From Candidatus Magasanikbacteria bacterium CG_4_10_14_0_2_um_filter_33_14 (GTDB lineage Bacteria > Patescibacteriota > Patescibacteriia > Magasanikbacterales > UBA922): 55,875 nucleotides of DNA. Made by a program: the position numbers and the translations under genes. Below are positions 16,073 through 37,424 of this stretch, piece by piece; positions within the stretch are counted from its first letter, which is position 1; every line of letters starts with the position of its first letter. The stretch covers positions 1 to 55,875 of the forward strand of contig PFPL01000070.1 in NCBI GenBank assembly GCA_002793035.1, in the 5' to 3' direction. Under the pieces are notes generated by a model. It was not told the origin of the DNA. It did no database searches and worked only from the letters and a program-made list of their open reading frames with translations.

Positions 16073-19000
16073 TTAGTTACAAGGTTGCGTATTTGGAATA
16101 TTGTCACGCATTTGACATTCTTGTGTCACAATTGCACCTCCATAGTCAGAAGCAAATCCAGGTTGTAAAGGAATATACAAACCAGGGCCAACTGAAATAC
16201 TATTGATTATTCCTTGACCAATAGGTTGAATAATAGCATTATGCCCAGAAAATACATAGAAATTAAAGACATGCCAATAAGGGGCTCCTTCATTGATAGA
16301 AGTTTGTGCATTACTAATGCTAAAAGTATAATCAGGTTTGTAAACAGAATTTTCAGGATCATCTTTGTCGACTTTTGGTAAATAAACATCTACCCACACT
16401 TCGTCACTTAATCTACTATTGATTTGTACGTTTGGAGATGTGACATAAAAACCAACAGCATCATTTTCAGAAAAATTAGACTTAGAAAAATCGAAAGTAT
16501 AAGCTTGTATTTGTGTTTTGTCCGTTTTTATTATCGGATGAACCCAAGAAAAATTATTCCCAGTCAAAACATCTCCATACATATTACAATTCGCAGAAGG
16601 TACCCAATAATTATTTATATCTTTTTCTATTTTACCACACTTATTTTCATTACTTATATTATTGAATTTTACATTTTCCAAAATAGAAAACTTATCATAC
16701 ATAAAATTACCAACAAAATCATAACTATTATTTACTTCAACATTACTTCTGATTACTACCCGAATTTGTCCAGAAGGAACAGCATGAGACATAACTACAT
16801 CATTTTTTACTTCATTATCTTCACCATTTACAGGATAATCAAACAAATCACCCAAACCAGCTGTAGACCAATTACTTACATTATACTCCGGACTATTAGA
16901 ATTTTGATAAACACTACTTGGTATAGAGTTGAAAAATAATTTGTAATCACCATTACACATAGGATTAGTCTCGATACCTTTTGCCAAATTTGGTTGAGTA
17001 GCACCTGCATCTTTCAATAAATAATAATAATCAAATGGATTTATATAACTAGATGCAAAATTAAAATTAATAAGTCTATTACCTAATATACTATACCTTT
17101 TATCCGTTGGATTTGGCACGACTTTTTTATACAATATAACTGACTGACCACTTGCAATATTATATCCATTACCGGTACCTTTTATCAAAGGATTCAATAT
17201 AGCTAATTGTGGTTGTGGTAAACCAACATCAACACCACAGGTAATACATTGATTTTTTAAATCTTGACAATTGTTGGCACATTGAAAACTTCCCTTTTGT
17301 GTTTCACTACAACTTATTGTACTAGACTGTGTATCATCATGAGTATAGACAATTGTTTGTTTACCATTTGCATCAAGTTTGTAGTCACAAGCTTCTAACC
17401 AGTTGCCCGAGATATCTTTGTCAACAGTTCCATTTCCACATCTTTGAGAAGCTTCAACAGTTTTTATTACACAAGTATTACTACAATATGTACAAGAATT
17501 ATTATATTCAGGAGTACATGCCACACCATTTTGACTAGCACCCAAATCACACTGCTCTGCACCAGAAATTTCTCCATCACCACAGTAAGCAGACGCAGTT
17601 TCTACAGAAGTATTTGGATCGCTAATTGGCGCACCATTTTCAGTACAATCATTTTTACAAAGATCATTATTATTGGTATTACCATCATCACAACTTTCAA
17701 AACTCCACTGAGTAATTCCATCACCACAATATCCCCCATTTGCAGTACAATCAAATGAACAACTATTAGCTTTATTGAAAGAATATGTTGGATCAGGTAT
17801 AGATAAACAAGAACTTACACTTACAGTATATTGTAAATCAGAACAATCTGAATCAAAACTACAGTTTACAGCACTTTGACCTTCATCAACCTTACATTTA
17901 CCAAATTTACCAACTTCATTTACACAAAAACTAGCCGCTTTTATACTACAATCGTTATCATCATTACAAGTCAAATTTTTATTGTTTGCACAAAAACCTA
18001 ACTGATATATAGATTCAGCCTTATCACAAAATTCATTTTCTTCTTTTGTACCATTTCCACAATAAGCCAATCTATTGGTACAGCTATCATTACAATAACC
18101 ATAACTACCATTGGAAATACCATCATCACAAACTTCAAGTCCCTCAATTATTCCGTTACCACACTTTGTAGCACTAGCTTCACAAGAAGATGCCAAATTC
18201 CACCTACAGGTATTAGCATTACAAGTTGCAGTAGCTCTCTTATCTGCAGAACAAATATTACCATTACTATCATAAGAAAATAGTTTGGTACTTCCTGGTG
18301 GTTCACATTCTTCACCACTAGCGTAATTCACAACACCATCTCCACAAACACCAGAATTGCCGCTTACAATATCTCCAGGTTTACAAAGACCACCAAATTT
18401 TATTTTATTTTGATTTATATATCTATTTACAAAATCAGCATCTTGAGAACTTTGTAAGTATTCAAAAGGGGCATATATTTCATAACTCTTGGTACTACTA
18501 ACAAATTGATACTCATAAACTTGTGAAAATTGAGGACAAGTATATGTGACCTCTTGAACATTCCAACAAGTAAGTAAATCATTATCACCACAACCAACCC
18601 AATCATTTATAGGATCTTGAGCTACAGTTCCTGCATAACTATTCAATAATCCCCAAGAATTTTGCCATTTAGAAGTAGTATAACCAGTAATATAAGACCC
18701 ACTATCCAAATTAGCTACAAAAGTATCTTTACCAAAATCAGAATTGAAATACTTGTCTAAATTGAAAGATGATAAACGTAAACCAACAAGTCTATTCAAA
18801 TCTCTATAAAATTTAGTTTTTTCATTTGAACAATGACCTGATGTACCTATTAATGAAACACCACTACCATCACGACAGTCAAAATCTGTTTGACAATCTA
18901 TATTAGTAATATTATGACCAACATCAGAACGAATAATAGAACTATCAGAATAACTATTAGGTAAACATTTATTATGTTCTGTCATTTTTGTATTAAAATT

Positions 19001-27217: not shown

Positions 27218-29290
27218 TTAGTTACTATAATCACTTGGACTGTTGACTTTCAAAGTATCTAAACAAGTGTTTAGACTATCTGTACTTTCTATAGTTGAAT
27301 AAATACAAGATGTATCACTGTCAGCATTAAGATTGACTGTACTACAATTTGTTTTAGATGTTATGTTGCCATCTCCATCATATTCAATCACACATGCTTG
27401 ACCTGACATAGGACCAAACCCAGGATAAAAACAATTTTGATGTGAATCTTGTAAAGTATGAGGAATAGTCGGGAAATAATATAAGTCCAAACCATTTGGT
27501 CCAAATTCTCTATGTTCTATTTTTAGATTAGTTTTGTCATCAATATCAGTTGAAATTGTTCTAAACCAAATATCATCTAACTTGTCAGCAGTAGAACAAG
27601 GATCTTCAACATTAGCAGCATCAGCACAAACTTTTTCTGGATACTCTACCAAATTAATATTTTCGATACTACTATACAATAATTTTTTACTAAAATTTAA
27701 TTCCAAATTTGTATCAGAAGCTACTCCAGATGTTTCAGGATTTGGAGTTATAGTAGTGATATAAGGTGAACTTTTATCAATTTTATTGATAATTTTGAAA
27801 TCCCAAAAATAATTATCTGGAGTTTTTTCATCATTTGAAATAATTTTGGAGTCAACAATAGGTGGTTTTACCAATTCATTTGATTCGTTAATAGGATTGT
27901 CTAGTGCATTCAAAGCCAAATCATAAACACCTGTAAAAGCTTCAGCTTCAAAAGGAGCACCTGCATTGCCACTAGGTTCTGCTGTACGAACCAAAGCCGT
28001 GAAATCTTTAATACAATATGGATCTGACTCAGGACAAGAAATAGGTAAACAATATTTGACTTGACCACAACTATTTTGACCACAACTTTCTGTTGGAATA
28101 AATTCTACAGTTTTGTAACCATTGCTTGGTTTCCAAATACCTGCAACAAGTTTCCCTTCTGTATTTATAATTAAATTATCAAAAATGCCACCATCTTCCA
28201 CTACACCACCAACGGTAGTAGGATCAATAGGCTCATTAAAATTAATTTTAATAACACTATCTTTGGTATCTACTTCACCTGCAGAAGGTGAAACCTTGAC
28301 GACATAAGGAGGTGTCAAATCCAAATTTGTAGATGTTTGAAAATCCCAAGCATAAGGTCTTGGTAAAACACTTTCATTAGTATTTGGTTTTTTTATTTCA
28401 GTAGACAAAACGACAGTATAATCTATATTCTCACTAGCACTACCCAAATTTTCACTTGGTTTCAATACCAAACTAAAAGCATTCAAATCAGCATCATAAG
28501 CAACTTTGGCAATAGCAGGAACTCCTGCATTTTCATTGCCAATATTAGCCAAGATGTCAATCTTCACAGCTGTAGTTTTTAAAGTATCACAAACTTTTTG
28601 TCCTTCCGCAGTTGTAATACAATCACCATAGTAAGGAATACTACTAGGACCACACTCTAAGGTAGGCCCAGACAAATCGCTATTCCAACAAGTATTGTTT
28701 CCATTATTTACGATAGTAGCAGGATCAAAAGGAACATTGAAAGTAACAACAACAGAAGTATTACGAGCTACCTCTTTTTGATTTCTATAGGGATAATGAT
28801 CCTTAATAATTCTACCAAGAGAACCAGAACCACTAAAAGTCTGAATGGCAGGAGGTAAAACAGGTGCACTACTTACTTGTCCACCACCGGCTTGTGTATT
28901 TAGTAATTTATCAAATACAAATTTGACAATAGCAAAAGCTGATAAAATAACTACCAAACCAATTACTGCATTTATAATGATTTTTTTTGCGGTAGCTACT
29001 TTGCCATCGTCTCCACCAGAAGTCATCCAAATAAAACCAGCATAAACAATAAGAGAAACAGCAATTACACCAAGTAAAGCTAAAACAGTATTGATAATAC
29101 GAATGATGATAACACGTAAATCAGTAGAGGCTAACGCAGCATTTTGATCAATTACATCTATTCCCAATGTATCTGTTGCACTTTGTGCAAAAACTTGTGA
29201 AGAAAACCCTAAAATAACAAAAAATACCATGATAGCGAAAACTATTAGGCTTTTTTTAGAAAAATGAATTTTACGAGTCCAAGGTAGCAT
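27218..29290 (-). CDS. Surface protein (690 aa) with a T4SS-pilin-like hairpin and Big_5-like domains
   Basis: This is a paralogue of the giant protein. The signal peptide and hairpin (TLGIDVIDQNAALASTDLRV, then AGFIWMTSGGDDGKVATAKK) are strongly similar to the giant's. The ectodomain carries three Big_5-like units (PYRNQKEVARNTSVVVTFNV, PPYVVKVSPSAGEVDTKDSV and SPYITTITPNPETSGVASDT). It ends in a Cys-containing tail, NTCLDTLKVNSPSDYSN. Its stop codon lies 3 bases before the giant's start codon, so they are cotranscribed. No frameshift joins them, since each has its own signal peptide. AAGGA about 6 bases before the ATG is a weak ribosome binding site. It is the first gene of the run down to ftsZ. 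Confidence 0.87.
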   Translation of the reverse strand: MLPWTRKIHFSKKSLIVFAIMVFFVILGFSSQVFAQSATDTLGIDVIDQNAALASTDLRVIIIRIINTVLALLGVIAVSLIVYAGFIWMTSGGDDGKVATAKKIIINAVIGLVVILSAFAIVKFVFDKLLNTQAGGGQVSSAPVLPPAIQTFSGSGSLGRIIKDHYPYRNQKEVARNTSVVVTFNVPFDPATIVNNGNNTCWNSDLSGPTLECGPSSIPYYGDCITTAEGQKVCDTLKTTAVKIDILANIGNENAGVPAIAKVAYDADLNAFSLVLKPSENLGSASENIDYTVVLSTEIKKPNTNESVLPRPYAWDFQTSTNLDLTPPYVVKVSPSAGEVDTKDSVIKINFNEPIDPTTVGGVVEDGGIFDNLIINTEGKLVAGIWKPSNGYKTVEFIPTESCGQNSCGQVKYCLPISCPESDPYCIKDFTALVRTAEPSGNAGAPFEAEAFTGVYDLALNALDNPINESNELVKPPIVDSKIISNDEKTPDNYFWDFKIINKIDKSSPYITTITPNPETSGVASDTNLELNFSKKLLYSSIENINLVEYPEKVCADAANVEDPCSTADKLDDIWFRTISTDIDDKTNLKIEHREFGPNGLDLYYFPTIPHTLQDSHQNCFYPGFGPMSGQACVIEYDGDGNITSKTNCSTVNLNADSDTSCIYSTIESTDSLNTCLDTLKVNSPSDYSN

Positions 29291-29339
29291 GGGAAATCCT
29301 TAGAAACGAAATTATTAAATTTTATGTTTGTTTTTGTAA

Positions 29340-29362
29340 CAATAAAGACTTTGTCTTTATTG
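29340..29362. other. 10-bp hairpin after the yqeY stop codon
   Basis: CAATAAAGAC (29340-29349) and GTCTTTATTG (29353-29362) form a perfect stem with a TTT loop. In the minus-strand direction no proper T-run follows, so termination is doubtful and yqeY may read through into the surface-protein genes 77 bases downstream. Confidence 0.6.
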
Positions 29363-29367
29363 TCTTT

Positions 29368-29814
29368 TTATTTTGTAAGAACTTGTTTGACCATTTTACT
29401 GACAATATTTCCATCAGTACGTCCTTTTAATTGAGCCATCGCGAGACCCATCACTCTACCGAAGTCACTATTACTAACATCTCCTATTTCAGCCACGATT
29501 TTTTCTATTTCTTTCAAAACGTCATCTTCTGATAATTGTTCTGGCAAATATTCAGAAATCATAGATATCTCTCTTTTATTATTTTCTACCAAATCTTCTC
29601 TACCACCACGAGCAAAATCTTGCATAGCATCGTTTAATTGTTTGACTTGTTTTTGTAGTACTTCCACTACTTCTTCATCAGATAATTCTTTCTGTTTTGC
29701 TATGCTTTCATTTTTTAAAACAGAAAGAACCACCTGTAATACAGACAGTCTTTCTTTCTCATGATTTTTACGCGCTTCCAATTGATTTTTTTTGAGTTGT
29801 TCAATCAAGGACAT
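29368..29814 (-). CDS. yqeY: GatB/YqeY domain protein
   Basis: The 148-residue helical protein matches the stand-alone YqeY family, which shares its fold with the tRNA-binding tail of the amidotransferase subunit GatB. Segments include RLSVLQVVLSVLKNESIAKQ, SDEEVVEVLQKQVKQLNDAM, EISMISEYLPEQLSEDDVLK and GRVMGLAMAQLKGRTDGNIV. The role is thought to be tRNA-related but is not firmly known. It follows rpsU by 8 bases, an rpsU-yqeY pairing seen in many bacteria. Confidence 0.93.
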   Translation of the reverse strand: MSLIEQLKKNQLEARKNHEKERLSVLQVVLSVLKNESIAKQKELSDEEVVEVLQKQVKQLNDAMQDFARGGREDLVENNKREISMISEYLPEQLSEDDVLKEIEKIVAEIGDVSNSDFGRVMGLAMAQLKGRTDGNIVSKMVKQVLTK

Positions 29815-29822
29815 AAAAATTA

Positions 29823-30068
29823 TTATCTTCTACGTTTTTTCTTGTAGTCTTCTTCTGGTAATTTACCAGTTTTACGCAAAAGGTCTGTCTTAACATTTTT
29901 CTTTACCTTAGAGACAGTCAATTTACGGACGACATTTTTACTTTGCTTAGCTGTAAAATATTGAATTTTACGAGCTTGCAAAATCGTGCCAGAACGTTGC
30001 CATTGTTGTTTCACTCTACGAATGAAAGCCTCAAATGACTCATTCTTTTTACGTTTTAAATCTGACAT
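29823..30068 (-). CDS. rpsU: 30S ribosomal protein bS21
   Basis: The 81-residue basic protein matches bS21: KKNESFEAFIRRVKQQWQRS and the C-terminal KKKRRR tail. It is slightly longer than the classical 71 residues. bS21 sits next to the anti-Shine-Dalgarno end of 16S rRNA and influences start-site recognition. Unusually for this window, its ATG is preceded by a strong Shine-Dalgarno sequence (GGAGGTGA, 9 bases upstream) held in the loop and 3' arm of a small hairpin. yqeY follows 8 bases later. Confidence 0.93.
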   Translation of the reverse strand: MSDLKRKKNESFEAFIRRVKQQWQRSGTILQARKIQYFTAKQSKNVVRKLTVSKVKKNVKTDLLRKTGKLPEEDYKKKRRR

Positions 30069-30075
30069 AATTTGT

Positions 30076-30094
30076 ATTCACCTCCCCAGTGAAT
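30076..30094 (-). promoter_or_regulatory. Strong Shine-Dalgarno of rpsU inside a hairpin
   Basis: On the minus strand ATTCAC and GTGAAT form a 6-bp stem around the loop TGGGGAG, so part of GGAGGTGA is in the loop and part in the stem. The sequence matches the anti-Shine-Dalgarno core over 8 bases. Almost every other gene in the window has an A/T-only leader. Confidence 0.75.
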
Positions 30095-30115
30095 TTATAT
30101 AAATAAGTTATTATT

Positions 30116-30144
30116 ATAATACACTATTTTTTGGCTTTAGTCAA
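30116..30144 (-). promoter_or_regulatory. Promoter of rpsU-yqeY
   Basis: TTGACT (30139-30144), a 17-base spacer and TATTAT (30116-30121) on the minus strand place the transcript start near 30109 and give a leader of about 40 bases that contains the Shine-Dalgarno hairpin. Confidence 0.75.
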
Positions 30145-30180
30145 ATAAAATAGCCTACTCCAAACTGTGGAAAAGTATTA

Positions 30181-30213
30181 AAAAACAGACCCTTATTATT
30201 AGTCTGTTTTTGT
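30181..30213 (-). terminator. Terminator of hisS
   Basis: AACAGAC and GTCTGTT form the stem, with T-runs on both sides, 20 bases past the hisS stop codon. In the plus direction it would also function. Confidence 0.85.
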
Positions 30214-30232
30214 TTTTTAAATTAGAAGTATA

Positions 30233-31675
30233 CTAAGCTTGTAAAATCTTTTTAACAAAGTTAGCTATTTTCTTTTGATCTACTACTTCTTGAATACCAG
30301 AGTCCATGTTACGCACCAAAATACTTCCATCTTGAACTTCTTTTTGTCCCAAAATAAGAGTATGTGTAGCACCTATCTTATTGGCCATTTCCATCTGTGC
30401 TTTGAGAGATGACTTAGCCAAATTATGATAAACAGTTATACCTTCTCTACGTAAAAATTCTAAAATGTATAAAGATTTTTTATTAGCCTGTATTCCCAAC
30501 TGAGCGAAAAAAACTTTGTTTTTCTTTTCTTCTACAGGTTTTTGACCTTCTCTTTCCAATTTTTCTTGTCTCTTTCTCAAAATCATAACAACTCTATCCA
30601 GACCTAAAGAGAATCCTGCAGCAGGTGTAGGTTGCCCACCCAATTGTTCAATAAGACCATCATAACGTCCACCACCACCAAGAGCCAGATTTGAAAATTC
30701 TTCATCATCAGCATAAAGTTCAAAAACAGTATTAGAATAATAATCTAAACCACGTACCAATTTTGAATTCAAAACATAAGGGATTTCAGCTTCATCTAAA
30801 TATTCAAGCACATCTGTAAAGAATTTTTTAGATTCAGGACTAAGCCAATCCAATATTTGAGGAGCTTCTTCCATCACTTCAATATCTTCTTTTTCTTTGG
30901 AATCCAAAATACGAAGTGGATTTTTGTTGATACGTTTCTTTGATTCTTCACTCAAATAACTTCTCTTACTACGCAAATAACCAACCAGTTCAACAATATA
31001 ATTTTGTCTATCTTCCAAAGTACCAATACTATTTATGTTTACTACAGTGTCAATTCCCAAATCACGTAAAGTATTATAAGCTACTGAGATTAATTCAGCA
31101 TCTACAACAGGACCACTATCTCCAATTGTTTCACAACCACTTTGATAAAATTGACGAAAACGCCCAGCTTGAGGTCTATCGTGTCTAAACATTTGACCAT
31201 GATACCAAACTTTAACCGGTTGTGGTAAAGCTTGCATACCATTTTCAATATAAGAACGAGCCATAGAAGCTGTCATTTCAGGACGAAGACATACTTTACT
31301 ACCATCTTTATCCTCAAAAAGATACATTTCTTTGTCCACTACATCAGTTCCTTTGCCAATAGATCTAATAAATAAATTTGCTTGTTCCAAAATAGGTGTT
31401 TCAACATAAGAAAATCCATAACTATTGGAAACATTTCTAATAACAGAATAAACGTTTTGCCATATTACACCATTTTTAGGTGTAATATCACGCATACCAC
31501 GTAAAGTATTGTAAGTTATTTTTTTATCCTTTTTTTCAACAGATTTTTTCACTTCTTTTTTGACAGTACTAGTACTAGCAGATTTTATTGTTGTTTTAGG
31601 ACTCACTTTACTTTTATTAGTAGTTTTTGTAGTCTTAGTCTTTTTAGCAGTAGTTTTGGTAGATTTACTTGGCAT
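30233..31675 (-). CDS. hisS: Histidyl-tRNA synthetase with a basic N-terminal extension
   Basis: The 480-residue class II synthetase charges tRNA-His. Motif 1 lies in SYVETPILEQANLFIRS, motif 2 in KVCLRPEMTASMAR and FRHDRPQAGRFRQFYQSGCE, the histidine-specific LVRGLDYYSNTVFELY follows, and motif 3 is ALGGGGRYDGL. The anticodon-binding domain fills the last 95 residues (VFFAQLGIQANKKSLYILEF). About 55 residues before the catalytic core are almost only Lys, Thr, Ser and Val (SKSTKTTAKKTKTTKTTNKS and onward), a histone-H1-like tail that is not part of the usual enzyme; a start at a later codon would remove it, but no alternative ATG is near. Confidence 0.96.
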   Translation of the reverse strand: MPSKSTKTTAKKTKTTKTTNKSKVSPKTTIKSASTSTVKKEVKKSVEKKDKKITYNTLRGMRDITPKNGVIWQNVYSVIRNVSNSYGFSYVETPILEQANLFIRSIGKGTDVVDKEMYLFEDKDGSKVCLRPEMTASMARSYIENGMQALPQPVKVWYHGQMFRHDRPQAGRFRQFYQSGCETIGDSGPVVDAELISVAYNTLRDLGIDTVVNINSIGTLEDRQNYIVELVGYLRSKRSYLSEESKKRINKNPLRILDSKEKEDIEVMEEAPQILDWLSPESKKFFTDVLEYLDEAEIPYVLNSKLVRGLDYYSNTVFELYADDEEFSNLALGGGGRYDGLIEQLGGQPTPAAGFSLGLDRVVMILRKRQEKLEREGQKPVEEKKNKVFFAQLGIQANKKSLYILEFLRREGITVYHNLAKSSLKAQMEMANKIGATHTLILGQKEVQDGSILVRNMDSGIQEVVDQKKIANFVKKILQA

Positions 31676-31758
31676 AATTTTTATTTATTTATTTATATTA
31701 TTATATTTTCTATGTAATTTTTTAATTTCTATATTTATAAAAAAAATGTAATCAATGT

Positions 31759-32415
31759 CTAAACTTTATTTTCATTAAGAGTTATATTATATTGTGGCAA
31801 ATCAAAAGAAGAAATTCTATCAAAAGGCCAACCACGTAACCAAACTTTACCTACGATAGCATCACGAGAAATAGCTCCAAAACGGCGTGAATCAAAACTA
31901 GCACCACGATTATCACCCAAAACAAAATATTGATCAGAACCCAAAGTAAGACTAATAGAACCACTAGTATCAATTTCATTTAAATAATTTTCACTTAAGA
32001 TCAAACCTTTTGGATTATCATTATTATAAATAATTACTTTACCATTTTCTATTTTTACTCTTTCTCCTGGTAAAGCAATAATTCTTTTCAAATAAAAATC
32101 AGTACTAACAGGTGAATCCAAAACAATTACTTCTCCTCTAGCAGGTTCTCTAAATCTATAAGTGATCTCATCAATTATCAAATAATCACTTTCATAAAAA
32201 TTTGGTTCCATAGATTGACCTTTTACAGAAAAAGGTTTAAAGAGAAAATAACGTATCACAAAAATAGTGATACAAGCCAAAATACCTATTTTTATAAGTT
32301 CTAAGAAAAATAAACCAGCTTTACTAAGAGAGCCTTTTTCATATACTTCATCATTGCTATTATCAAAGTTTGTGTCTTCTACCAAATTATCTTTTTTTTC
32401 AAAATCTTCAGACAT
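31759..32415 (-). CDS. lepB: Signal peptidase I
   Basis: The 218-residue enzyme removes signal peptides from exported proteins. A 30-residue acidic cytoplasmic tail is followed by one membrane helix (about 41-60, IKIGILACITIFVIRYFLF). The catalytic serine S68 lies in VKGQSMEPNF and the general-base lysine K110 in FYLKRIIALPGERV. The third conserved box is YFVLGDNRGASFDSRRFG. It would process the numerous secreted proteins encoded here. It is expressed from its own promoter at 32452-32480. Confidence 0.96.
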   Translation of the reverse strand: MSEDFEKKDNLVEDTNFDNSNDEVYEKGSLSKAGLFFLELIKIGILACITIFVIRYFLFKPFSVKGQSMEPNFYESDYLIIDEITYRFREPARGEVIVLDSPVSTDFYLKRIIALPGERVKIENGKVIIYNNDNPKGLILSENYLNEIDTSGSISLTLGSDQYFVLGDNRGASFDSRRFGAISRDAIVGKVWLRGWPFDRISSFDLPQYNITLNENKV

Positions 32416-32451
32416 AAAAGAATAAATAATGTTAATTACCTTCTAGAGAGA

Positions 32452-32480
32452 ATTATATACTAAAATTAGAGAAAATGCAA
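32452..32480 (-). promoter_or_regulatory. Promoter of lepB
   Basis: The minus strand has TTGCAT (32475-32480), a 17-base spacer and a perfect TATAAT (32452-32457), about 36 bases before the lepB ATG. Confidence 0.75.
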
Positions 32481-32558
32481 GTGTTAGCCGAAACTTACAA
32501 AATTGAGAAATAAGTTATGAACTTATCTATATAATATATTATAAAAAATACAAAAACA

Positions 32559-32587
32559 TTGACATTTTCTCCAAAATATTATATATT
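32559..32587 (+). promoter_or_regulatory. Promoter in front of the broken tRNA and tRNA-Val
   Basis: A perfect TTGACA (32559-32564), a 17-base spacer and TATATT (32582-32587) lie about 19 bases before the first base of the tRNA-like fragment, so the fragment and tRNA-Val would be transcribed together. Confidence 0.75.
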
Positions 32588-32627
32588 ATCACACGTCAAA
32601 TTCATGACCATATAGCTCAGTTGGTTA

Positions 32628-32647
32628 CCTGCCTGACGGCAGGCAGG
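32628..32647. repeat. Short palindrome 1 in the broken tRNA
   Basis: CCTGCCTG-ACGG-CAGGCAGG is a perfect 8-bp inverted repeat with a four-base loop. Removing it restores the D arm GCTC...GAGC exactly, which shows a clean 20-base insertion. Confidence 0.9.
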
Positions 32648-32660
32648 GAGCGCTACATTG

Positions 32661-32678
32661 ATCCCGACTGGTCGGGAT
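32661..32678. repeat. Short palindrome 2 in the broken tRNA
   Basis: ATCCCGAC-TG-GTCGGGAT is a perfect 8-bp inverted repeat with a two-base loop lying in what was the anticodon loop and 3' anticodon strand. It has a different sequence from palindrome 1 but the same size class and G+C-rich character. Confidence 0.9.
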
Positions 32679-32697
32679 AGAGGTCAGAAATAAATAT

Positions 32698-32771
32698 GAA
32701 CCCGTAGCTCAGTTGGTTAGAGCGCTACATTGACATTGTAGAGGTCCCCAGTTCGAATCTGGGCGGGTTCA
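32698..32771 (+). tRNA. tRNA-Val (GAC anticodon)
   Basis: A complete 74-base cloverleaf: acceptor GAACCCG/CGGGTTC, D arm GCTC...GAGC, anticodon arm CTACA-TTGACAT-TGTAG (GAC), T arm CCCAG-TTCGAAT-CTGGG and discriminator A. CCA is not encoded. It begins only 11 bases after the broken tRNA. Confidence 0.95.
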
Positions 32772-32812
32772 CAAAGTATAAATAAAAATAAACAAGCCTC
32801 TGGATAAAATAC

Positions 32813-32841
32813 TTGAAATTTTTCTAAAAGTAGTTTATAAT
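32813..32841 (+). promoter_or_regulatory. Promoter of tRNA-Ile
   Basis: TTGAAA (32813-32818), a 17-base spacer and a perfect TATAAT (32836-32841) lie 17 bases before the tRNA-Ile 5' end. Confidence 0.8.
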
Positions 32842-32858
32842 AGCCAGGCAAATAATAA

Positions 32859-32932
32859 GGGCGTGTAGCTCAGATGGTTAGAGCGCAACACTGATAATGT
32901 TGAGGTCCTCGGTTCGATTCCAAGCACGCCCA
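32859..32932 (+). tRNA. tRNA-Ile (GAT anticodon)
   Basis: A complete 74-base cloverleaf: acceptor GGGCGTG/CACGCCC, D arm GCTC...GAGC, anticodon arm CAACA-CTGATAA-TGTTG (GAT), T loop TTCGATT and discriminator A. The T stem (CTCGG/CCAAG) has a C-G to C-A irregularity at one end. CCA is not encoded. Confidence 0.94.
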
Positions 32933-32979
32933 CGAAAAATAGCAAGTTAATTGTTGCTATCTCGTGGAAAGACCACAAA

Positions 32980-33006
32980 AAAACTCCTAATTTTAGGAGT
33001 TTTTTG
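32980..33006. terminator. Terminator between tRNA-Ile and the YtxH-like gene
   Basis: AAACTCCTAA and TTAGGAGTTT form a long stem with flanking A- and T-runs, which works in both directions and separates the plus-strand tRNAs from the minus-strand genes to the right. Confidence 0.88.
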
Positions 33007-33029
33007 TTTTATTTATTAATAAACAATTT

Positions 33030-33365
33030 TTATTTCTTAACAATTTTCTTTTTAGAAACGCCTTTGGAATGATTTTTCCATTGAGATTTTACAACTTTTT
33101 CTATCATATCACGCATACTATCTAATAAATCATTTTCTACAGCATATTTATTCACAGCTTGTTCTACAAATTGATAATACTTTGTTTTGGTCATCTTGTC
33201 CCAACCTTCTGAGGCTATTACTTTTTCTTTTACATCATCATAAACATCACCAGCACTGTCCATCAAATTGTTGCGAACTTCTTTACCTTTTTTGGTAGCA
33301 TTGAGCCAGACCAAACCAGCACCCAATAATCCTCCCAAAAAAAGACCTTTTTTAAATTTACCCAT
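33030..33365 (-). CDS. YtxH-like small membrane-associated protein
   Basis: The 111-residue protein has a short glycine-rich hydrophobic segment (KKGLFLGGLLGAGLVWLNAT) directly followed by KKGKEVRNNLMDSAGDVYDD, the pattern of YtxH-domain proteins. An amphipathic helical body and a strongly basic tail (KGVSKKKIVKK) follow. YtxH proteins are often stress-related in Firmicutes; the function here is unknown. It is separated from the next gene by an A/T-rich repeat. Confidence 0.7.
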   Translation of the reverse strand: MGKFKKGLFLGGLLGAGLVWLNATKKGKEVRNNLMDSAGDVYDDVKEKVIASEGWDKMTKTKYYQFVEQAVNKYAVENDLLDSMRDMIEKVVKSQWKNHSKGVSKKKIVKK

Positions 33366-33371
33366 ACAATT

Positions 33372-33406
33372 TAGATTATTAGATTAATTGATTATTAGAT
33401 TATTGG
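33372..33406. repeat. Left arm of imperfect inverted repeats flanking the four-helix-bundle gene
   Basis: About 35 bases built from TAGATTATT and GATTAAT units match the reverse complement of 33811-33845 at roughly 28 of 35 positions by eye. The A/T-rich composition lowers the significance. Confidence 0.5.
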
Positions 33407-33408
33407 TA

Positions 33409-33795
33409 TTAATCTTTTTTACATTTTTGTAAATAAGCAATATAACCATTTAATTTTTTCTTTATTTTTTCACAAAGTTCAATTAGATGTTCAATGCTTC
33501 CTTCTTTTTTTATATATTTCAAATCTTTTATATAAATAAGATGATCTCGTGTTTCATCCAATGATCCTCTTGCTTGCCTACAAAATTGTATATTCTCTTG
33601 ATAATGAAATCTTCCGTGGCCTTCAGCAATATTTGCACCAACAGACGAAGAAGATCTTCTTATTTGACTTACCACATTATATTTTTCTTCATAAGGTAAA
33701 AATTTACAAATTATTCCTACCTTCATTCTCAATTCATGAGACAATTTCCAAACGTCTAAATTGGTAAAATCTTGATATTTATTGTTTCCCTCCAT
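33409..33795 (-). CDS. Four-helix-bundle protein (23S rRNA intervening-sequence/Avd-like family)
   Basis: The 128-residue protein matches the family of small four-helix proteins first found inside 23S rRNA insertions: FTNLDVWKLSHELRMKVGII, then VSQIRRSSSSVGANIAEGHG in helix 2, CRQARGSLDETRDHLIYIKD in helix 3, and IEHLIELCEKIKKKLNGYIA in helix 4. Relatives form pentamers and serve as accessory proteins (Avd) in diversity-generating retroelements, but no reverse transcriptase or template repeat is present here, so this is a free-standing copy. Imperfect inverted repeats flank it on both sides, which hints at past mobility. Confidence 0.9.
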   Translation of the reverse strand: MEGNNKYQDFTNLDVWKLSHELRMKVGIICKFLPYEEKYNVVSQIRRSSSSVGANIAEGHGRFHYQENIQFCRQARGSLDETRDHLIYIKDLKYIKKEGSIEHLIELCEKIKKKLNGYIAYLQKCKKD

Positions 33796-33810
33796 AGATA
33801 AACTAATAAT

Positions 33811-33845
33811 CTATTAATCCAATAAACCATTAATCCTTAATCTAT
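33811..33845. repeat. Right arm of imperfect inverted repeats flanking the four-helix-bundle gene
   Basis: The segment CTATTAATCCAATAAACC and the following ATTAATCCTTAATCTA match, in reverse complement, the left arm at 33372-33406. The two arms lie just outside the stop and start codons of the gene. Confidence 0.5.
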
Positions 33846-33855
33846 TATAACAAAT

Positions 33856-35016
33856 TTAACCATTGTCAACAAGTTCATTGTAAACATCATCCAATTTTTT
33901 TACAATATTTTTCCAAGAATATTTTTCAACAGCCACATCTCTCACGCCCCTTTTCCAAGAAGGTATTTGATCTTTTTGTGAAAAATAATCTTTTATCAAA
34001 CCAGATAATTCTTTGTAATTTTTTATGGTAAAAATTTCTCCACCATCTTTGGCTACGGTTCTCACTCCTGGCAAATCACTAGCTATTACAGGCACACCAC
34101 TAGCCATAGCTTCTAACAAGACTACTCCAAAAGCTTCTGCTGTATTGATGGAAGGCAGTACAAATAAATCTGCCAAATTATAATACTTTGGTAAATCTTC
34201 ATCAGACGCAAAACCTACAAAATTTGTAATATCCTCCAACCCCATACCTTTTGCTTGCAATATAAATCTTTCTTTTAGTTCCCCATCACCTACAAAAACA
34301 ACTTGCACATCCAAATTATTTTCTTTCAAGATAAACAATGCTTTTAATAATATTTCTATCCCTTTGAAATAATGCGCCACATCCATACCACCAACAAACA
34401 ATATTGTTGACAAATCTTTATCCAAATTATGTTTTTGTAACAAGACCTCATTTTTTTCCCTTGGTACAAAATTATCTATATCCACACCAAAAGGAATTTC
34501 TACAAATTTTTCTTTATTTTTTTCAAAAAAATTCCTAGCATCACTATGCTCAATATAATCAAAAGAGCTTACCAATATTTTATCAGCCACACTAAGAATT
34601 TTTGGCATCCAAAATTTGGCATACATCTTGAAAATAAAACCTTTTATTCCATCTCCTCTAGTATCCATATGATATGTCACAACCAAAGGCTTTTTAGGAT
34701 TTTTCAATTTCCATTTACGTACCAGATTGGCAGTACCAAAAAAAGGATAGTGCAAATGTACTATATCAAAACTATCAAGTTCTTTGGCTACAGTTGGCAT
34801 ATAAGCAGCATTACCATAATACAATGGAGCAGCTAATCTGCGAGCAAAATCCTGATTTTTTTCAAGTTCTTTTTTATCTGGTTCTACAGCATATTGTGGG
34901 GTAAATACTTCTACATCATGACCAAGCAACGACAAAAAACTAGCCATCTGAAAAGCAGTGTTCCCCATTCCACCATAATATGGTGGATATGTACAGACAA
35001 TGTGAGCTATTTTCAT
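33856..35016 (-). CDS. Glycosyltransferase family 4 protein
   Basis: The 386-residue GT-B enzyme transfers a sugar from an activated donor. The N-terminal IAHIVCTYPPYYGGMGNTAF contains the GGMG acceptor-side loop. The C-terminal domain has the donor-binding motif EAFGVVLLEAMASGVPVIAS (E-x7-E) near residue 290 and ILFVGGMDVAHYFKGIEILL near 205. The acceptor is unknown. It is the last gene of a five-gene minus-strand glycan operon and begins 4 bases after the kinase-like gene's stop codon. Confidence 0.93.
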   Translation of the reverse strand: MKIAHIVCTYPPYYGGMGNTAFQMASFLSLLGHDVEVFTPQYAVEPDKKELEKNQDFARRLAAPLYYGNAAYMPTVAKELDSFDIVHLHYPFFGTANLVRKWKLKNPKKPLVVTYHMDTRGDGIKGFIFKMYAKFWMPKILSVADKILVSSFDYIEHSDARNFFEKNKEKFVEIPFGVDIDNFVPREKNEVLLQKHNLDKDLSTILFVGGMDVAHYFKGIEILLKALFILKENNLDVQVVFVGDGELKERFILQAKGMGLEDITNFVGFASDEDLPKYYNLADLFVLPSINTAEAFGVVLLEAMASGVPVIASDLPGVRTVAKDGGEIFTIKNYKELSGLIKDYFSQKDQIPSWKRGVRDVAVEKYSWKNIVKKLDDVYNELVDNG

Positions 35017-35020
35017 AAAA

Positions 35021-36379
35021 TTATTCTTCTTGTTTATTTACACCCGTCATTTCCCAATCAATGATATAAAACTGTGGTTTACCATCTTCACCTGGTTCTA
35101 TTTTACCGTCTTTATCCATTTTCATCAAAATATTGCGTGGTTCTATATCAACATGTTTTATACCAGCTTGTTTCATTTTTTCTGTGACATTTTTAATAAA
35201 TTCTTCATAAGGTTTAGTGTAAGGTGCGCCGAATTTTTCGGTTTCATATTCATCTACATGTTTTTCAAATCCTTCACTTTCAAAGTCACCACGTCTTTTG
35301 TTTACTCTCGTATTATATTTATTTATTTCATCTGGATTCACAAATTTTTTATCAAGTTGTTCAAAAACTTGTCTGTAAATCACTAAAAAATTTTCTTCTA
35401 AAGAATAATCTTTCTTCCTATTTAGTTCTATTAATTCTTCTAAATCAAAAAAAGATAAAATCATTTTTAAATACTCAAAACAAAAATCTTGTTTAGATAT
35501 TTCAATATTTTTTCTACAAACTAAATCATAAATGGAAGAAGCTAAACTACCTTTTATTTTTATAATATAATTTATCATTTCTTCACTATAGCTTTTAAAC
35601 ATTTCGCGTCTATGATATTCATAATCACGATAAATATCAGCACAAATTGAATCTGACAAATCAATTAAATAGTATTCCTTCCATTCATTACCCTCTAAAT
35701 AATATTGCGTAACATCTTTTTTCCGAAGCGTACTAAAATAATCGCTATTTTGTATTCTAAATTCCAATAATGAAGTTGTGCTCTCTAAATATTCAAATAA
35801 TAAATAAGTATTACCCCTGTCTTTTATATAACCAAATGGCTTTGGTGTAGGAATTCCCACATCAAAGGATTTTTTTGCCAATTTATACTCTTCCGTATCA
35901 GAAACTAGTACTTTTCGCTGCTCAACTCTCTTCACTAGCACTTTTTTATCACAAAAATCCACAATCTTTACACGACTAATATCATAAGGTTCATCTATAA
36001 TCTCTCCAATAGTTTTACCTTCTGGCAGCCCCTTATGAGTCTCTATACCACGATCAACCAATGGTAAATTTTCAATAAACTCAGTTGGATTTTTTAATAA
36101 TTCCAAATATTCTTCAGAAGACTCTATTTCATTTTTAAAAATAGTACCAAGGTGTATTTCTTGTGTAACCTCTTTTTCCAGTTTATAAAACACTGGTTTT
36201 TCTTCGTTGAGTCTATATAAATCCTCATTTTCTTCAGCCTTTCTCAAAATTTTGGCAGCAGGATTCGACGGTTCGAATTCTTCATCATACTTTGCTCTTT
36301 GCCTCAATTTCAAATAAACATCCGACAACCTCTGGCGTTTTTCAAAATCTGAAATATGTACTTTTCCTGTTTCTGACAT
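35021..36379 (-). CDS. Protein-kinase-like phosphotransferase (APH/lipopolysaccharide-kinase-like), unknown substrate
   Basis: The 452-residue protein is not of a family I can name, but it has a kinase-like active site. KKVLVKRVE (K150) fits the N-lobe lysine and NTYLLFEYLE (191-199) the hinge. Near the C-terminus, KHVDIEPRNIL gives H409, D411 (catalytic base) and N416, and YIIDWEMTG gives the metal-binding D441. About 210 residues lie between hinge and catalytic loop, more than usual. The N-terminal 130 residues are charged and helical. Lying between DUF2304 and GT4 genes, with 4-base gaps on both sides, it may phosphorylate a glycan or its lipid carrier; protein kinase activity is an alternative. 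Confidence 0.7.
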   Translation of the reverse strand: MSETGKVHISDFEKRQRLSDVYLKLRQRAKYDEEFEPSNPAAKILRKAEENEDLYRLNEEKPVFYKLEKEVTQEIHLGTIFKNEIESSEEYLELLKNPTEFIENLPLVDRGIETHKGLPEGKTIGEIIDEPYDISRVKIVDFCDKKVLVKRVEQRKVLVSDTEEYKLAKKSFDVGIPTPKPFGYIKDRGNTYLLFEYLESTTSLLEFRIQNSDYFSTLRKKDVTQYYLEGNEWKEYYLIDLSDSICADIYRDYEYHRREMFKSYSEEMINYIIKIKGSLASSIYDLVCRKNIEISKQDFCFEYLKMILSFFDLEELIELNRKKDYSLEENFLVIYRQVFEQLDKKFVNPDEINKYNTRVNKRRGDFESEGFEKHVDEYETEKFGAPYTKPYEEFIKNVTEKMKQAGIKHVDIEPRNILMKMDKDGKIEPGEDGKPQFYIIDWEMTGVNKQEE

Positions 36380-36383
36380 ATTA

Positions 36384-36710
36384 TTATTTTTTCAAACTTT
36401 CTTTTCTTACGACATCGGTCAAATCTCTTTTCAATCCTTCAATCTTGATATTCATTTTAAAAACTAGATAAAATAAACAAGCAATAGAAATATAAATAAC
36501 AAGATCAACACCTCTACCAATACCCACGTACTCAGCCAAAATTTGAGTACTGTTTGGCCAAAAAACAACTAGCGTAATTACCAACCACAAAACAATCCAA
36601 AAAAAAGTAGCTTTTGGTCCTAATAAAGTTTTTTGCTTTTTGTTCCAAACAGTAAAAATAGCTGATAATGCTAACAAGGCAAAAATGATTTTGAAGATGA
36701 GTAGTAACAT
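36384..36710 (-). CDS. DUF2304 family membrane protein
   Basis: The 108-residue protein has three membrane helices (IFKIIFALLALSAIFTVWN, then FFWIVLWLVITLVVFW, then VDLVIYISIACLFYLVF) and a conserved tail (KIEGLKRDLTDVVRKESLKK) with the arginine typical of DUF2304. These proteins are commonly encoded next to polyprenol-phosphate glycosyltransferases and are thought to assist them at the membrane. That pairing is seen here with the GT2 gene just upstream in the transcript. Confidence 0.85.
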   Translation of the reverse strand: MLLLIFKIIFALLALSAIFTVWNKKQKTLLGPKATFFWIVLWLVITLVVFWPNSTQILAEYVGIGRGVDLVIYISIACLFYLVFKMNIKIEGLKRDLTDVVRKESLKK

Positions 36711-36764
36711 ACAAAATAGTAAAAAGTAAAAATTGATAAGTGATTAAGTGATAAAGTTTCAAAT

Positions 36765-37424
36765 TTATTTTAAAAATTTCCCCAAAAACAAATCTTTTAC
36801 AATCTTCAATCCCCCACCAATTCCTTGTCCATATTCATGATAAATAACTTTAACAGGAAATTCCACATAATTCAAATTATGTTTCCTAGTCAACCCCATA
36901 ATCTCTGTCGCATGAGCCATCCCATTTTGAGTGATTTTTATTTTTTCAAGTGCATTCCTATTCAAAATTCTAAAACCATTTTGTGAATCTTTTAGAGATA
37001 CTACACCAAATAATTTGTTTATAAAACGACCTATTGGTAATAAGAAATACTTTTTTAAAAAAGGAACTTTACTTCTATTGTCGAGAAAACGAGAACCAAA
37101 AAGAATATCAGCTTTACTTTCTTTTAGCTTTTCCAAAGCAGGTGCAATATCTTCTACACAAAACTGTCCATCACCATCAAAATGTAAAACATAATCAACA
37201 CCAATACTTCTTGCATACTCATGTCCAGTCTCAAGAGCCGCACCTTGTCCCAAATTTATTTTGTGTTGTAATACCATAGCACCACTTTGTGTGGCTTCTC
37301 CAATCGTATTATCCCTAGATTTATCATCTACTACAATAACACTATCTACAGATTTCAACAAATCAGAGACTACTTGAGCAATACGTTTTTCTTCATTATA
37401 AGCAGGCACTATAGCTATAAACAT
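36765..37424 (-). CDS. Glycosyltransferase family 2 (polyprenol-phosphate sugar synthase-like)
   Basis: The 219-residue GT-A enzyme begins FIAIVPAYNEEKRIAQVVSD and has SVIVVDDKSRDNT and LHFDGDGQFCVEDI with the metal-binding aspartates. QNGFRILNR and VIYHEYGQGIGGGLKIVKDL follow, as in dolichol-phosphate mannose synthase-like proteins. It probably charges a polyprenyl phosphate with a sugar at the inner membrane face. It has no membrane helix of its own, which fits cooperation with the adjacent DUF2304 protein. It follows the epimerase gene by 5 bases. Confidence 0.92.
   Translation of the reverse strand: MFIAIVPAYNEEKRIAQVVSDLLKSVDSVIVVDDKSRDNTIGEATQSGAMVLQHKINLGQGAALETGHEYARSIGVDYVLHFDGDGQFCVEDIAPALEKLKESKADILFGSRFLDNRSKVPFLKKYFLLPIGRFINKLFGVVSLKDSQNGFRILNRNALEKIKITQNGMAHATEIMGLTRKHNLNYVEFPVKVIYHEYGQGIGGGLKIVKDLFLGKFLK

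Follow-up and report, generated by a model that had tools for sequence, protein, structure and literature searches.

The fragment at positions 32606-32686 of a 55,875-nt contig of Candidatus Magasanikbacteria (PFPL01000070.1; this whole stretch is called the window here) is the broken 5' part of a tRNA-Val gene. It is probably what remains, after decay and loss of the ORF, of a GIY-YIG homing-type element that inserts into tRNA genes, the functional tRNA being restored by an intact copy. Dead tRNA copies, hairpins, an adjacent intact tRNA, association with GIY-YIG ORFs, a patchy distribution and purifying selection on the ORF were all observed in the sequences, mostly metagenome assemblies, that make up our evidence; from these we infer cutting and homing, as well as what the hairpins do.

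A broken tRNA-Val copy in the window

The fragment consists, in this order, of GACCATATAGCTCAGTTGGTTA, the palindrome HP1 (CCTGCCTGACGGCAGGCAGG), GAGCGCTACATTGA, TCCCGACTGGTCGGGA and TAGAGGTC, and is separated by a linker of 11 bases after 32686 from an intact tRNA-Val(GAC) at 32698-32772. The sequence, ARAGORN and Rfam agree with the original prediction of a tRNA-like fragment 11 bases 5' of an intact tRNA-Val, although neither ARAGORN nor Rfam calls the dead copy itself a tRNA. The locus comprises the following features:

32559..32587, + strand: sigma-70-like site TTGACA-17-TATATT, 5' of the dead copy and the intact tRNA-Val; consensus match only
32606..32627, + strand: dead tRNA-Val copy, acceptor 5' strand and D-arm to GGTTA; direct repeat of 32698-32719, last 16 nt identical
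32628..32647, + strand: HP1 palindrome, between the D-loop and the 3' D-stem; same place in relatives G001, G003 and G030
32648..32661, + strand: dead tRNA-Val copy, 3' D-stem, anticodon stem and start of the anticodon loop; 100% repeat of 32720-32733
32661..32678, + strand: HP2 palindrome ATCCCGACTGGTCGGGAT, in the anticodon loop; 18 bases including flanking A/T, which extend the core TCCCGACTGGTCGGGA (32662-32677)
32678..32685, + strand: end of the dead tRNA-Val copy, TAGAGGTC, 3' anticodon stem and variable loop; the copy stops here
32698..32772, + strand: intact tRNA-Val(GAC), the functional copy (ARAGORN; Rfam tRNA, 72 bits)
32859..32933, + strand: intact neighbouring tRNA-Ile(GAT), with no dead copy (ARAGORN)

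The palindrome-free parts of the fragment repeat the intact tRNA-Val (24 nt at 83%, the last 16 being identical, then 14 nt at 100%), and the two repeat blocks are offset by exactly 20 bases, the length of HP1. The fragment is a decayed tRNA copy with hairpins in its loops, as had been proposed. Both palindromes, of 20 bases at the D-loop edge and 18 bases in the anticodon arm, were found as described and are beyond chance, since 0.00 and 0.03 matches are expected in shuffles. HP1 pairs with itself at 9 of 10 positions, and on both strands of the window HP1 and HP2 match only their own sites at up to three mismatches.

The 3' half is indeed lost, the T-arm and 3' acceptor strand being absent from the window copy. 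This absence speaks against a split or intron-containing tRNA rejoined after transcription, a reading that was already ranked lower in the original prediction and that we find hardly credible: both halves are kept, with complementary arms between them, at L012, L048 and L249, but nearly all cases have an intact tRNA nearby, and intron families gave no match between 31500 and 34000 at E-values up to 1. A permuted tRNA was rejected because not all tRNA parts are present, and a group I or group II intron within the tRNA because of the same intron search. An integrase-type element in the tRNA gene was also discarded, as no integrase occurs among the listed ORFs of at least 80 aa in 28000-37000, which by inspection are housekeeping-like, and the repeated unit (~90 bp) covers the 5' part of the tRNA, not its 3' end.

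A dead copy is found near six of 29 related tRNA-Val(GAC) loci, among them those of G001, G003 and G004, from the same genus, and G030, from another genus, and is missing from the other 23. The tRNA-like region occurs in G000, G001 and G003, and in G030 with a different anticodon arm. Conservation with covariation was not found in these relatives: HP1 is kept, and outside it the fragment decays in G003 with no compensatory change. These observations bear on the possibility that the hairpin region is a functional leader RNA, kept to control transcription or processing of tRNA-Val. Such a role would suit a region that is shared by these genomes, separates a promoter-like site from the tRNA, and folds well (-34 kcal/mol, z = -2.9). 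However, its absence from most relatives and its uncompensated decay count against it, as do equivalent dead copies downstream of tRNAs, where a leader role is impossible, and we hold it to be very improbable. The promoter predicted earlier could be upheld only in part: the sigma-70-like site matches the consensus at 11 of 12 positions, but promoter-like matches in the region hardly exceed chance (4 versus 2.6 in shuffles).

In G001, HP2-like arms (TCCCGAT/ATCGGGA) flank the intact tRNA-Val, and the 3' half of an outer dead tRNA comes next, with further hairpins in its T-loop. The outer dead remnant of G001/G003 matches the window tRNA-Val at 30/33 and 17/18 positions, whereas the nested intact tRNA-Val matches that of G004 at 73/75 and that of the window at only 62/73, which supports the replacement of a displaced native gene by a different tRNA-Val.

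Recurrence of broken tRNA copies and dispersal of HP1

The census of the window's own genome, built on stretches of it, identified a partial same-strand dead copy within 700 bp of 13 of the 38 testable tRNAs, versus 0/38 in the opposite-strand control. At these and other loci, upstream dead copies retain the 5' end of the tRNA and downstream ones the 3' end, with the hairpin inside, and they are near-identical to the intact neighbour. Their hairpins have several unrelated sequences: the HP2-like TCCCGA..TCGGGA, which this genome also has in further dead tRNA copies, CCCCGC..GCGGGG and TCCGCC..GGCGGA are all unrelated to HP1. A split tRNA-Asn of the same genome has an intact tRNA-Asn within it, bounded by TCCCGAT and ATCGGGA (L249, contig C30), a cassette of ~95 bases in total; tRNAs nested between inverted repeats within a split copy of the same tRNA also occur at L012, L048 and L098. 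The clearest two-sided cases are a tRNA-Asp in G004 (L211) and a tRNA-Cys in G002 (L209), where dead copies flank a GIY-YIG ORF and an intact tRNA. For tRNA-Cys, the order dead-ORF-intact-dead in G002 becomes ORF-intact-dead in G004 and intact-dead in G000, which has no ORF, and this series suggests ORF loss.

A class-wide scan for a tRNA D-loop followed by HP1 found the junction GGT(T)A|GAGC occupied by HP1 at 12 sites in seven genomes, with no hit for the reversed-pattern control. Extending the scan to ~85,000 named genomes yielded 67 stretches, and 66 of 71 matches in named genomes are genuine broken tRNAs; the scan pattern requires both D-loop and HP1, so these counts are uninformative on other loops or hairpins. 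The broken genes span Patescibacteria, Omnitrophota, Bacteroidota, Nitrospirae and others, and include tRNAs for Val, Met, Lys, Ile, Thr, Phe, Asn, Asp and His, so that the idea of tRNA genes serving as insertion sites holds recurrently, for many tRNA species and several phyla. Isolates such as Sinomicrobium (L079) and Sediminicola luteus (L074) are among the many independent assemblies with the pattern, making an assembly artefact unlikely as its sole cause. An intact tRNA lies within 700 bp downstream of 54 of the 66 broken tRNAs. A fixed rule found a GIY-YIG ORF between the broken and intact tRNA at 13 loci; L117 and L122, whose ORF frames start before the limit of the rule, join them by inspection, giving at least 15 HP1 loci with an intervening ORF, and L118 is truncated at a contig end.

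Tandem duplication of tRNA genes, by slippage or unequal recombination, does occur and would leave near-identical neighbours such as these, which could then decay and gain hairpins by chance or mutation, for instance through template switching at cruciforms. It leaves unexplained, though, why the same 20-base palindrome sits at the same position across phyla, why tRNAs are nested between inverted repeats inside split copies and why GIY-YIG ORFs occupy the same slot. Recurrence in unrelated lineages already disfavours this explanation, which we judge improbable.

Longer insertions were also seen. In two Omnitrophota loci (L069 and L093), the tRNA D-arm and HP1 are followed by a long insertion that is similar in both. 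At L041 (G019, contig C55, 1-1300), the leader, the 5' part of tRNA-Asp and HP1 form three tandem copies, the first with a GIY-YIG ORF, followed by a tRNA-Asp with a long insertion behind its anticodon loop that looks group I intron-like by eye; no intron family reached the gathering score at L041, L069, L093, L249 or L012, the few loci searched.

HP1 is dispersed among the relatives, with 0-16 copies per genome and presence in 26 of 59, versus 0 for the control. Near tRNAs, most HP1 copies (54 inspected in all) sit within broken tRNA copies, in the D-, T- or anticodon loop, but HP1 is also present within otherwise full-length tRNA copies (L088, L094); one HP1 splits another palindrome precisely at its midpoint (L196), and some are away from both tRNAs and GIY-YIG ORFs. 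When the flanks of HP1 were joined, they matched nearby sequence at 23 or more of 30 positions for 11 of 54 copies, versus 0 of 168 null draws, two of the 11 being AT-rich, opposite-strand matches that may mean nothing. Breakpoints of dead copies fell at loops in 39 of 70 cases versus 41% expected (p = 0.008, for breakpoints that are not independent), so that loop preference is only moderate. Two earlier proposals are modified. It holds generally that tRNA copies have hairpins in their loops, but with just this moderate preference; and the supposed tRNA gene hit twice is a decayed copy, but one standing as a dead duplicate beside a putative rescue copy, in an arrangement that is recurrent and GIY-YIG-linked.

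Dispersal, the variety of loops, the insertion at a palindrome centre and the occurrence in full-length copies would all fit hairpins that are themselves mobile, that is, REP-like palindromes for which the hairpin loops in tRNAs and other repeats are insertion sites and to which a nuclease may supply mobility in trans. Dead copies would then be ordinary tandem duplicates that tolerate insertions, and GIY-YIG ORFs passengers or the trans-acting mobiliser. We consider this rather unlikely, because unrelated hairpins take the same role, a pattern unexplained by one insertion sequence, and because a same-strand GIY-YIG ORF between dead and intact copies remains unaccounted for. RAYT-kind Y1 transposases do not track HP1 either: their numbers showed no significant correlation across 16 genomes (rho 0.40), G010 having 15 HP1 and no Y1_Tnp hits, and a RAYT was therefore rejected as its mobiliser.

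Small GIY-YIG ORFs and the proposed element

The GIY-YIG nuclease ORFs of the related loci are ~80 codons long and carry PF01541 (E-values from 1e-14 to 2e-18); the window contains none. Of the 48 small GIY-YIG ORFs in 16 related genomes, 20 are located no more than 300 bp from a tRNA, invariably on its strand, compared with roughly one expected by chance (an estimate from ~40 tRNAs per Mb). Values of dN/dS of 0.16-0.23 in four pairs indicate purifying selection. Besides the HP1 loci, an ORF separates the intact from the displaced copy of the same tRNA at L132, L209, L211 and L246. The numbers of HP1 and of small GIY-YIG ORFs correlate across 16 genomes (rho 0.74, p = 0.001, uncorrected for kinship), more closely than those of HP1 and Y1 transposases. 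The protein tree is poorly resolved, with 3 of 25 inner branches well supported, and the intermixing of Omnitrophota and Nitrospirota in it hints at horizontal spread without proving it.

We propose that the full element, as seen at related loci, would comprise the ~80-codon ORF plus sequence of the invaded tRNA, either a whole intact copy or just the part that it lacks. The nuclease would cut a conserved loop motif of the tRNA gene, and repair of the break would copy the element into the cut site, leaving the resident tRNA as one or two partial copies while the sequence carried by the element keeps tRNA function. Short GC-rich hairpins would come to occupy the loops of the dead copies, probably rendering them uncuttable, non-functional as tRNAs and poor partners for recombination that deletes the element. 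In the window, the ORF would be gone and the dead copy, the 11-base linker and the intact tRNA would remain; an old ORF-less remnant is the best-supported reading of this locus.

Some observations oppose homing. Most dead-intact pairs have no ORF, and in the window's own genome the association holds for only part of the GIY-YIG ORFs. Since HP1 also occurs off tRNAs and GIY-YIG ORFs, it could be a dispersed repeat in its own right, for which dead copies are just a place to settle. It is possible, but tentative, that minimal GIY-YIG nucleases and GC-rich hairpins form a joint selfish system, in which loops would be opened by the nuclease, hairpins would act as cut-proof seals and the carried tRNA would rescue the host; it would be a natural analogue of rescue-type gene drives, with essential tRNA genes as its route across phyla.

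Patescibacteria and other uncultured lineages contain numerous small GIY-YIG ORFs that have no known role, and for many of them a plausible one would be that of selfish tRNA-gene elements sparing their host via a replacement copy. Such elements would account for tRNA fragments and GC palindromes overlooked by annotation, and would offer small nucleases aimed at conserved tRNA-gene motifs. They would also extend to bacterial chromosomes both the rescue logic seen in fungal mitochondria and the cutting of tRNA genes that characterises phage SegB.

Related systems and ORFs outside tRNA genes

SegB of phages T4/T6 is a free-standing GIY-YIG homing endonuclease of tRNA regions that cuts within tRNA genes at RAWTSGAAC, the complement of a T-loop sequence, and drives tandem tRNA-segB duplication (PMC13096335). 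The loci described here share with it a GIY-YIG domain gene beside tRNA genes, tandem units of tRNA and nuclease gene and many tRNA isotypes, but they are found in bacterial genomes, their putative nuclease comprises the catalytic domain only (~80 aa) and their dead copies contain hairpins. Fungal mitochondrial mobile ORFs with duplicated gene ends, such as those of Glomus atp9 (a GIY-YIG ORF) and Allomyces atp6, supply a replacement for one end of a gene, whose native end then lies displaced and unused (PMC3630166). Our loci likewise have a nuclease ORF between an intact and a displaced copy and may replace a native part; they differ in being bacterial, in targeting tRNAs (and one protein gene, glyS), in having hairpins in the displaced part and in being sometimes nested in inverted repeats. 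A GIY-YIG homing-type element with a rescue copy is the best-supported explanation, and the case for it leans on these two precedents.

In rRNA genes of the CPR, GIY-YIG-encoding insertions match neither group I nor group II introns and lie mostly at the tops or bases of stem-loops; the words tRNA, hairpin and palindrome do not appear in the main text of that work (PMC11270868). The bacterial group and domain family are the same as here, but the target is rRNA, not tRNA. The open-access literature that we searched contained no report of the bacterial tRNA arrangement, which may have been described elsewhere. REP/RAYT systems resemble it in their short dispersed palindromes and in a single-domain nuclease as possible mobiliser, but the nuclease fold is different and the cognate Y1 transposase was not found in G010 despite its many HP1 copies. 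Rickettsia palindromic elements are palindromic repeats inside genes, but they are far longer and lie in kept genes, whereas the hairpins here have 16-20 bases and lie in dead copies.

The direct-repeat test revealed no general duplication of the flanks of GIY-YIG ORFs located away from tRNAs, so the rescue pattern applies to tRNA sites and one protein-gene case. In the latter, found by eye (L128; G000, contig C11, ~17246-17449), a GIY-YIG ORF overlaps the end of glyS, and a second glyS tail behind it, with 75% DNA identity, reads as RDTMEQERISIENLEQYFSSKF and is broken by a 37-base hairpin. It is the in-frame tail rather than the displaced tail that is closer to the relatives, unlike in the mitochondrial precedent; this counts against homing, and glyS was rejected as proof of a foreign rescue copy. 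A native displaced copy and a foreign functional copy are supported at the Val locus of G001/G003 and not at glyS.

At L132, on contig C11 of the window's own genome, the GIY-YIG ORF upstream of tRNA-Val(TAC) extends into the tRNA gene, the 5' part of which encodes the last residues of the ORF, APSSVG; similar C-terminal tails were observed at L064, L067, L102 and L111. Another ORF away from tRNAs (L234; G005, contig C15) has a perfect 49-base direct repeat at both sides, which contains another common palindrome.
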